Of a stretch of 38,182 bases of DNA, positions 11,438 to 27,333 are shown piece after piece. Position 1 is the stretch's first letter. Every line of letters begins with the position of its first letter. The DNA is from a virus. The position numbers and the translations under genes are program-made. The stretch is from positions 1 to 38,182 of IMG/VR virus record IMGVR_UViG_3300010994_000002; one strand, given 5' to 3'. A model generated the notes under the pieces. That model had not been told where the DNA came from, did no database searches, and saw only the letters and a list, made by a program, of their open reading frames with translations.

Positions 11438-11491
11438 TTGACGGATAAAATATCCTATGATATAATTATATCATAGTTAAGGAACATTAAA
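11438..11491 (+). promoter_or_regulatory. Operator-controlled promoter 2 with 20-bp palindrome and leader box
   Basis: TTGACG (11438-11443), 17 bases, TATAAT (11461-11466). The spacer contains the palindrome GGATA-AAA-TATCC (11443-11455). The -10 lies at the centre of a perfect 20-bp palindrome TATGATATAATTATATCATA (11456-11475). The leader box with one change (CATAGTTAAGGAACATT) follows. Drives the ERF gene. Confidence 0.85.
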
Positions 11492-11518: not shown

Positions 11519-12366
11519 ATGACTACAAATAAAACTGAAGAAATAAAAAAAGATTTAAGTTTTAATAAAAGAATATCATTGGTTAAAAAGTATGTATTTG
11601 AAAATTTAAAGGAAACTAAAGAATTAGACAATATAAAGGGAACTAATACAACAGGATTTTACAGTCTATCGACAATTGAAAAATATTTATTTCCAGCTTT
11701 AGATATGTATGATTTAGATTTGGACTTAGAAATATTTTCAGACAAAATTATTGGTCATTGGTACGATTGTTCAGGCGATAATCAGAGAAATATTGAAATT
11801 GATTTTAGTAGAATTGAACATGTAGAAAAGTTGCAGTTAATGGCTAACATGGTACAAAGTGAGGGAGCTGTAAAAAGTTATACAAGACGTTATGCTTTAA
11901 CAGCTATTTTAAGACTTCCAAGTACTGATCTTATAGATAGTGACTTTGATAAAAATAATTTTCGTGGAAATAACAACAAAGCAGCTGTACAAACTGGACA
12001 AAATAATCAAGGAAATAAATCAGCCAATGACGGAAAAAAAGTAACTCCGCCTCAGTTAAAAAGATATTTTGCAATTGCTAAAGATAAAGGATTTGACATA
12101 GATTATCTAGATGAGCTAATTAAAGTAGCTTATAGTATTCCAACTAAAAATGACTGGCTAAAATCTGATTACGATGCATTTACCAAGTACATGGAAGGCT
12201 ATACAATGCAAGATACTCATAATGCATTGATAGCAAAAATTAAAAAGGCAGGTAAGCCAGTGCCAGTAAAAAAGTAACTGAATGCGGTATGGCAACCGGT
12301 GGCTTAAATGATGAGTTACCGGTCTGGATACCGGCTAATTATTACGCAATACCATATTTAAATTAA
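11519..12366 (+). CDS. erf: ERF-family single-strand annealing protein, with probable -1 frameshift extension
   Basis: An ERF recombinase that anneals single strands during phage recombination. The frame-0 product is 252 residues, ending at TAA 12275-12277. Seen: the family core from about residue 20 to 140, with GTNTTGFYSLSTIEKYLFPAL, a GHWYDCSGDN strand pair and the conserved SEGAVKSYTRRYAL motif near residue 119; then a glutamine/asparagine linker and a helical C-domain (TPPQLKRYFAIAKDKGF). The last sense codons read GTA AAA AAG TAA, which contains A_AAA_AAG (12268-12274). In the -1 frame translation continues 30 codons to TAA 12364-12366, giving 282 residues, and stops on the ribosome site of the next gene. 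A hairpin lies behind the heptamer. Family call strong; frameshift is inference. Confidence 0.8.
12268..12335 (+). promoter_or_regulatory. Probable -1 programmed frameshift signal in the ERF gene
   Basis: Slippery heptamer A_AAA_AAG (12268-12274) in the correct phase, nine bases of spacer, then nested stems: (G)CGGTAT near 12284-12290 with ATACCG(GC) near 12328-12335, and ACCGGT (12295-12300) with ACCGGT (12318-12323). The same heptamer occurs at the tail chaperone frameshift (27303-27309) in this genome. Confidence 0.65.
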
Positions 12367-12379
12367 GGAGTTGGTTAAA

Positions 12380-12586
12380 ATGAAAAAAACAAAAATAATG
12401 GATATAAACTTAGGATTCGATGAAGGCTCGAAAAATTTCTATGTTGAGGTTGAAACATATATAACGAAAAATAACGAGAATATTTCACTCGGAAAAGTTA
12501 TTGAGAATATAGATGTAGCTTGTATATACAAGCTAATAAAAACAATACAGACAGAAGTGGGACAAGAAGGAGGTCAGAGTAAATGA
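12380..12586 (+). CDS. Hypothetical protein, 68 residues
   Basis: Not recognised. Start ATG 12380 chosen because TTAAGGAG ends ten bases ahead; TTG 12371 is too close to that site. Its ribosome site overlaps the stop of the frameshifted ERF product, so the two could be translationally coupled. It looks like a mixed alpha/beta fold (NLGFDEGSKNFYVEVETYI). Overlaps the next gene by four bases. Confidence 0.6.
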   Translation: MKKTKIMDINLGFDEGSKNFYVEVETYITKNNENISLGKVIENIDVACIYKLIKTIQTEVGQEGGQSK

Positions 12587-12756: not shown

Positions 12757-13051
12757 TAAATTATATTCACAATATAAATTTAATTTGGTGGGATATAATT
12801 TATTGCAAGATGAATTAGTACATCTTGTAGATGGATATTATGACGAATTATATTTTGAAAGCATTGGTAAATTTAATTTTATTAAGCTTTCCAATCAAGG
12901 AATTACACCGTACACGATCGTATATGGTGTAAACTACGCTTTAAATAGAGAAAGAGAAAATAAAGATGTATTATTTTATCTTCCGATATCGAAAGATATT
13001 GATAATATTGGGAGAAAAAAATATTTTCAAGAATATTTAAAAAAGTGTTGA
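12713..13051 (+). CDS. Hypothetical protein, 112 residues
   Basis: Not recognised. Start ATG 12713 (or 12716) behind GAGGAGG. Mixed alpha/beta, no Cys cluster except a final KKC. Its last codons overlap the -35 element of promoter 3 (13048-13053): the TGA stop is the start of TTGACG. Confidence 0.6.
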   Translation: MMGIMKILKNMKKNNKLYSQYKFNLVGYNLLQDELVHLVDGYYDELYFESIGKFNFIKLSNQGITPYTIVYGVNYALNRERENKDVLFYLPISKDIDNIGRKKYFQEYLKKC

Positions 13052-13101
13052 CGGATATTTTATCCTATGATATAATTATATCATAGTCAAGGAACATTAA
13101 A
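13048..13101 (+). promoter_or_regulatory. Operator-controlled promoter 3 with 20-bp palindrome and leader box
   Basis: TTGACG (13048-13053), 17 bases, TATAAT (13071-13076). Operator GGATA-TTT-TATCC at 13053-13065, the perfect 20-bp palindrome at 13066-13085 and the leader box to 13101. Almost identical to promoter 2 apart from the operator centre (TTT instead of AAA). Confidence 0.85.
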
Positions 13102-13125: not shown

Positions 13126-13332
13126 ATGAAAAAGATTAATAATTATGACGATTTTTATAACTGGATGCAAGAAAATAATCTGGATTATGAGTTTGGGACA
13201 AAAAAATACTTTAACGATACAATATATGCGTTTAATAAAGAAGAACACGACAATTGGATAAGTGTCCCTTATCCAGGTAAAAACGGAAGCTGGAACAAAA
13301 CAAAAAATACTATAAAAAAAGCATTGTTATAA
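13126..13332 (+). CDS. Hypothetical protein, 68 residues
   Basis: Not recognised. Acidic N-terminal half with many aromatic residues (YDDFYNWMQENNLDYEF), basic end. A small acidic first-in-operon protein of this kind could be a host-takeover or DNA-mimic protein, but nothing in the sequence proves it. Start ATG 13126 behind AAAGGAGATT. Confidence 0.6.
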   Translation: MKKINNYDDFYNWMQENNLDYEFGTKKYFNDTIYAFNKEEHDNWISVPYPGKNGSWNKTKNTIKKALL

Positions 13333-26925: not shown

Positions 26926-27333
26926 ATGAAAGAAAGAAAGTTAAAGAAAAAAGAGGTAATGATTGTATCAAGAATCTTGGAAGACGTAAATTTCAAATAT
27001 TATGTTGAATATTTATTATCAAATAAGGTTGATAAAATATTGCGAACAGGTGAAAATAAGAATGAAAGAATAATTATGCTTATGGGCGATATAATAGCAT
27101 TTGTACTTCAAAATATGAATAAAGCCGAAGAAAATATTGATGCTTTAATCATATCTTATAAAAATATTACACAGGAACAAGTTGAAGACCTAGACGTTGA
27201 CGAATATATAAATGTTCTGAAGAGTATATGGATGGCGGGAATTCCTAACATACTCGCTGATTATGTAGATTTGACAGAAGTTAAAAAAAAGTTCAAAGAG
27301 CTAAAAAAGGATACGGAGAAAGAGAACTATTAA
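26926..27333 (+). CDS. Tail assembly chaperone, frame-0 product (gpG-like)
   Basis: A 135-residue helical, acidic protein behind the tail-tube genes. By position and by the frameshift it is the gpG-like chaperone that binds the tape measure protein. Near its end the codons CTA AAA AAG contain A_AAA_AAG (27303-27309). Unshifted ribosomes stop at TAA 27331-27333. Start ATG 26926 behind GAGAGGTG. Confidence 0.75.
   Translation: MKERKLKKKEVMIVSRILEDVNFKYYVEYLLSNKVDKILRTGENKNERIIMLMGDIIAFVLQNMNKAEENIDALIISYKNITQEQVEDLDVDEYINVLKSIWMAGIPNILADYVDLTEVKKKFKELKKDTEKENY

Follow-up and report, generated by a model that had tools for sequence, protein, structure and literature searches.

The end of the ERF gene in this 38-kb virus record raises the question of whether a single-strand annealing protein is produced in two lengths by programmed -1 frameshifting. 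In the window, by which we mean the whole 38,182-nucleotide stretch of DNA that was analyzed, the gene terminates in CCA GTA AAA AAG TAA, and the elements that bear on the question were located as follows.

11519-12277, + strand: ERF-family single-strand annealing protein, 0-frame product of 252 amino acids (PF04404, E=2.5e-8; phrog_155, E=2.3e-8)
12268-12274, + strand: slippery heptamer A_AAA_AAG, in phase and adjoining the 0-frame stop (read from the sequence)
12275-12277, + strand: 0-frame stop TAA abutting the heptamer; every full-tail relative has a neighboring stop, and in L053 one sense codon lies between
12274-12366, + strand: -1 frame tail of 30 codons, VTECGMATGGLNDELPVWIPANYYAIPYLN (12274-12363), followed by TAA (12364-12366)
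12367-12370, + strand: GGAG, the ribosome-binding site of the next gene (ATG at 12381), directly after the TAA of the tail (read from the sequence)

The PF04404 score of the window ERF was 34.5 bits against a gathering cut-off of 25. An earlier note on this DNA had claimed that the gene ends with an in-phase A_AAA_AAG, that the -1 frame stays open for another 30 codons, and that this frame stops at the ribosome site of the next gene, and each of these claims agreed with the coordinates and translation. Termination in the 0 frame gives a product of 252 residues, while inclusion of the -1 tail gives a predicted product of 282 residues with a junction peptide of ...PVPVKKVTECGM.... The same note had described the 100-base gap behind ERF as unusual for this region, but several neighboring gaps measured 54 to 210 nt. 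Upstream of the ERF stop, the -1 frame of the window was open for just 6 codons, which confines any shift to a short segment that includes the heptamer.

Most known cases of programmed frameshifting in phages concern structural genes. Within one AT-rich genome alone, the combination of a heptamer and an open -1 frame is weak evidence. An AAAAAAR sequence in an open overlap was found for 8 of the 54 ORFs of this AT-rich genome and a -1 extension of at least 25 codons for 13 of the 54, with ~2 coincidences of both patterns expected by chance in the window. When the A_AAA_AAG form was specified, only the ERF gene and the tail chaperone gene (26926-27333) qualified. The frameshift of the tail chaperone is of the classical kind; its heptamer was also present in L027, L029, L030 and L031, in keeping with the prior claim that the tail chaperones use the same heptamer as ERF. 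Two in-phase copies of A_AAA_AAG occur in the tail assembly chaperone (27285-27291 and 27303-27309), 18 nt apart, and both are found in L027. The significance of the ERF pattern derives from its conservation and not from a count of coincidences in one genome.

The same ERF was detected in three independent IMG/VR phages (L001, L002 and L003; identities of 96, 90 and 83% over the best tblastn segment). In all three the A_AAA_AAG heptamer, the stop next to it and the -1 frame were intact, a conservation that the earlier note had proposed to check. The tails of these phages were 30, 38 and 33 residues long, and the first 27 tail codons aligned without gaps among the window and the three relatives. 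The 68-residue gene that follows ERF in the window (12381-12586) is absent from L002 and L003, and because of this absence the tails of these two phages end in different sequences, with the -1 tail running into the ribosome site or the start of the following gene. Stop-codon readthrough was rejected, as the 0 frame past the stop amounted to 9 codons in the window and L001 and was different in L002 and L003. An assembly error in the A run was considered unlikely, since the run had an equal length in four independent contigs, with six A residues ahead of the G in each of the four phages of the window group.

Selection was then apparent at the level of codons. Twelve columns of the tail alignment were variable, and 7 of these were third positions of the -1 frame. 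Six of the 12 changes were silent in the -1 frame compared to an expectation of 2.9 (P=0.034, or P=0.019 when no stop was created), a permutation test of the window-group tail gave a P value of about 0.02 to 0.03, and a codon model gave an omega of 0.27 for the -1 frame (LRT p=0.03) and of >1 for the other two frames, results that are marginal on their own given that the four sequences (the window and three relatives of 83 to 96% identity) are close. These values agree with the codon-level constraint that had been put forward as a check, and chance fixation keeps a small probability for the window clade taken alone.

A conserved -1 frame could also be all, or the conserved 3' end, of a small gene in its own right, with its own start used by ribosomes that re-initiate past the ERF stop, and the tails of the window, L001 and L003 do contain an ATG. 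In L002, however, this ATG is replaced by AAG and the first possible start is a TTG at the fifteenth tail codon, on which ground an independent start for the tail was rejected.

No close relatives of the window ERF were found in GTDB genome contigs. A comparison with 50,697 named phages produced no match at an E value of 1e-5, and a relaxed limit detected weak, distant ERFs only. Searches with the window tail, utilizing a DNA pattern, the phage collection, Pfam, PHROGs and the PDB, detected no relatives beyond the four phages. The nearest tail-less relatives of the window ERF, L042 and L043 (with a 49% identical core; PF04404 score of 42.1 bits for L042) and L013, had neither heptamer nor tail, indicating that the feature is not essential to ERF function. 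Elsewhere, a strong sigma-A-like promoter (TTGACG-17-TATAAT) overlaps a perfect palindrome, CTATGATATAATTATATCATAG, at 11438-11477 and 13048-13087 of the window. One of these almost identical copies precedes ERF and the other the ORF at 13126, and the element is also found before ERF in L001; the arrangement resembles an operator-promoter common to the genes of an early regulon.

The RNA behind the heptamer was examined for stimulatory structures, and two nested elements were detected.

12295-12323, + strand: stable 12-bp hairpin (ACCGGT/ACCGGT) starting 20 nt after the heptamer, role uncertain (folds; 94% of cells paired in four relatives)
12285-12333, + strand: outer stem CGGTAT/ATACCG around the hairpin, 10 nt after the heptamer, weakly kept (79% of cells paired)

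Stems 9 bases behind the heptamer had been described in the earlier note as a typical stimulator layout, but the observed distances were 20 nt for the hairpin, which is too far for a classical stimulator, and 10 nt for the outer stem. When conservation among relatives was checked, the outer stem was eroded, with 3 of its 6 pairs broken in at least one relative, and no covarying pair was detected in the hairpin or outer stem among the four relatives. A stimulator usually lies 5 to 9 nt behind the heptamer, a spacing that is usual and not obligatory; behind the ERF heptamer no structure lies at this spacing, nor is there a clear Shine-Dalgarno-like stimulator as far upstream as one would normally be. 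The missing close stimulator lowers the expected efficiency of frameshifting, although such a structure is an accessory and not a defining element, and the hairpin is possibly helpful to the shift.

The fold behind the ERF heptamer in the window was stronger than those of shuffled sequences (z of about -4) and the stretch is GC-rich in an AT-rich genome, as might be seen if the conserved entity were an RNA or DNA structure, such as a regulatory hairpin, a terminator-like element or a replication element, and the -1 frame were a by-product. The changes among relatives nevertheless respected the codon structure of the -1 frame, and pairs were broken by some of them; one of these, GAG to GAA, disrupts a C-G pair yet is silent in the -1 frame. 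Pairs did not covary, and an Rfam element or terminator behind ERF was rejected, as there was no Rfam match and a terminator-like match did not coincide with the conserved hairpin. Furthermore, a second group of ERFs (see below) keeps the frame even though no significant downstream fold was found in L044, L045 or L061, whose folds were no better than those of shuffled sequences. An explanation by conserved structure was judged very unlikely, and a protein-coding -1 tail reached by frameshifting is preferred.

This second group of ERFs was reached by using as queries the terminase of the phage family, then the C-terminal domain of ERF and then the new tail. The PF04404 scores were 76.7 bits for L044, 77.3 for L053, 80.2 for L061 and 52.8 for L045. 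The ERF genes of L044 and L045 end in AAA AAA AAA TAA (nine A residues and then TAA, giving A_AAA_AAA), and those of L061 and L062 end in TCT AAA AAA AAG TAG TAA (A_AAA_AAG). In these four records the -1 frame encodes a tail of 53 to 54 residues with 58 to 79% identity, and a zinc-ribbon-like CxCGG...CxxC pattern was invariant across the three distinct tails that make up this set. In L053 a single codon separates A_AAA_AAG from the stop, and what follows is a shortened copy of the tail, ISYCECGGIIPRKGN. An in-phase A_AAA_AAG or A_AAA_AAA was therefore present in 8 of 8 full-tail records (the window, L001 to L003, L044, L045, L061 and L062) and also in L053, and the element common to both groups was a heptamer directly before the stop codon. 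Analysis of the second-group tail with the codon model detected an omega of 0.17 for the -1 frame (p=1.6e-5) and values of ~1 or above for the other frames. At the junction, L061 and L044 differed by one whole codon. The junction of the window tail reads TAACTGAATG and that of the zinc-ribbon-like tail TAATAGAATG; on this comparison, the two tails may or may not share an origin at the junction.

The zinc-ribbon-like tail matched no Pfam family above the cut-off (the weak match was to RING, at 0.038) and had no match in the PDB, while a structure model was of low confidence (pLDDT 60). A search of 391 Clostridia genomes with this tail produced two weak matches with E values of about 0.001; L065 was rejected as a match, as the sequence belonged to an ABC-permease reading frame.

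The second group was also informative for translation of the tail as a separate gene. Its zinc-ribbon-like tails have an ATG 9 codons past the start of the CxC motif, and in L044 and L045 a GGAGG is present about 13 nt upstream of that ATG, as re-initiation might utilize. The CxCGG half, however, precedes the ATG, with no ATG, GTG or TTG ahead of CxCGG in the -1 tail of L061, and this pre-ATG part was itself constrained at the codon level (P=0.02). In the tailed records, moreover, the -1 frame begins 2 to 6 codons 5' of the ERF stop, over the heptamer. Together with the AAG of L002, these observations render a separate gene very unlikely. The A runs of this group are relevant to another possibility, namely that RNA polymerase inserts an extra A while copying the run, after which ordinary translation of such a transcript produces the same long protein. 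Polymerase slippage as a subject is reviewed in PMC5009743. Runs of 8 to 9 A residues are long enough for it and are present in L044, L045, L053 and L061, so that this route is possible for the A8 to A9 forms. Against this, the window group has only six A residues before the G in its four phages, which is short for slippage, the runs of L061 and L053 also end with AAG in phase, and the conserved feature is a phased ribosomal heptamer followed by a stop. Transcriptional slippage was accordingly judged to be unlikely, and ribosomal frameshifting was retained as the more probable explanation.

Comparison of the two groups by an identity matrix identified a domain at the C-terminal end of the 0-frame product that differs in its affinities from the core.

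12038-12274, + strand: C-terminal domain (KVTPPQLKRYFAIAK...) swapped between annealing-protein cores, present on ERFs and on the non-ERF protein of L057

The core of the window ERF had 49% identity to that of L042 and 21 to 33% identity to those of the second group, while its C-terminal domain had 36% identity to L042 and 40 to 50% identity to the second group. For L045, the core was 32 to 35% identical to those of L044, L053 and L061, but the C-terminal domain was 64 to 72% identical (70 to 72% for L044 and L061) and the tail was 58 to 79% identical to those of the two second-group members that keep the tail. The combination of a divergent core with a similar C-terminal domain and tail in L045 indicated that domain and tail stay together. 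A protein of L057 (1958-2755) matches phrog_7838, which is annotated as an exonuclease, and is not an ERF by Pfam. Its C-terminal domain had 46% identity to that of the window ERF and it is without a slippery end, suggesting that the domain is common to different phage DNA-metabolism proteins. Judging from these identities, the C-terminal domain appears to be passed from core to core along with the slippery end and the tail.

The potential role of the tail was approached through a short motif and through a survey of other ERFs.

12310-12327, + strand: acidic-hydrophobic motif DELPVW within the tail (NDELPVW in the window, DDELPVW in L002 and L003; from the translation)

The survey covered 391 Clostridia genomes, 398 genomes of the phylum and several phages, with L068 and L080 left out, and no other A_AAA_AAR end with a tail was detected in it. 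In-frame C-terminal zinc ribbons were found on the ERFs of L079, L092, L093 and perhaps L088, and in-frame acidic-hydrophobic ends on those of L078 (...KDELPWK) and L087 (...EEDLPEF). An ERF from a genome of the same phylum (L090, about 1003-1740) ends in frame with ...NDDDLPF, an exact bacterial SSB-type tip. As other ERFs carry comparable modules in frame, the -1 frame adds kinds of tail that are encoded directly elsewhere. These ERFs belong to the same PF04404/phrog_155 family, but, unlike the window ERF, they have no heptamer at the end and carry the module (the tip of L090 or the zinc ribbon of L079, L092 and L093) on every subunit.

Bacterial SSB tips, through which partners are recruited, have the sequence DDDLPF. 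Recruitment by the SSB C terminus is described in PMC10164576 and PMC7913777. The likeness of the window tail to SSB tips, as suggested in the earlier note, was supported in part by the in-frame ends of other ERFs and by an order of acidic and then hydrophobic or aromatic residues that is shared with DDDIPF/DDDLPF; it did not extend to position, as the SSB tip is strictly terminal whereas DELPVW is internal, with 12 residues after it in the window. We infer that the long ERF form may equip a minority of subunits with an additional module for docking or DNA contact.

Shifting in dnaX occurs at A_AAA_AAG, one of the most shift-prone heptamers in E. coli (PMC5009743). The dnaX gene of E. coli (tau/gamma) resembles ERF in this heptamer, in the production of a pair of proteins with a shared N terminus and in a role in DNA replication or recombination. 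The two differ in that the shifted product is shorter for dnaX and longer for ERF, and in that dnaX has an upstream Shine-Dalgarno-like element and a close hairpin while ERF has neither at the canonical place. Tail chaperones of the lambda gpG/gpGT type utilize the same heptamer in this phage family and also generate the long form by a -1 shift, but these are structural assembly genes with an extension of ~100 residues or more, whereas ERF is a recombination protein with a tail of 30 to 54 residues. No described frameshift in ERF or annealing proteins was found in open-access full texts, in line with the earlier note, and term searches revealed none in the PRFect paper or in the accessible part of a large recoding review. 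To our knowledge, -1 frameshifted tails on ERF annealing proteins have no earlier description.

Overall, the programmed -1 frameshift put forward in the earlier note was supported by the heptamer, stop and frame of the relatives, by selection in the -1 frame only, by the lack of an early start in L002 and by the second group. The ERF annealing protein is very probably made in two lengths through -1 frameshifting, with a conserved tail; that ribosomes slip, how often they do so and what the tail does are inferences from the sequences. Most ribosomes would stop at 12275 and produce the 252-residue annealing protein, while some would slip back one base at A_AAA_AAG, with two lysine tRNAs re-pairing with AAA AAA, and read 30 codons to produce the 282-residue form with its conserved acidic-hydrophobic tail. 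Slowing of the ribosome by the stop that directly follows the heptamer, and perhaps by RNA structure, would probably help this process. The tail would most likely be an extra contact surface on a minority of the subunits of an oligomer, for a replication or recombination partner, and a junction of this type would instead append a zinc-ribbon-like tail in related phages. A broader proposal, which is plausible but tentative, is that the slippery end is an exchangeable docking point in a clade of annealing proteins, at which acidic-hydrophobic or zinc-ribbon modules might be added so that a set minority of subunits carries a partner- or DNA-binding tail, with the C-terminal domain, site and tail moving as one cassette.

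If frameshifting at this site is true, the proportion of annealing subunits with and without a tail would be fixed at translation, as happens with dnaX for the replication clamp loader. Such a ratio would explain limited recruitment of partners in an oligomeric annealer and would yield a testable docking tail. Furthermore, standard gene calling would miss the C-terminal part of a recombination protein.
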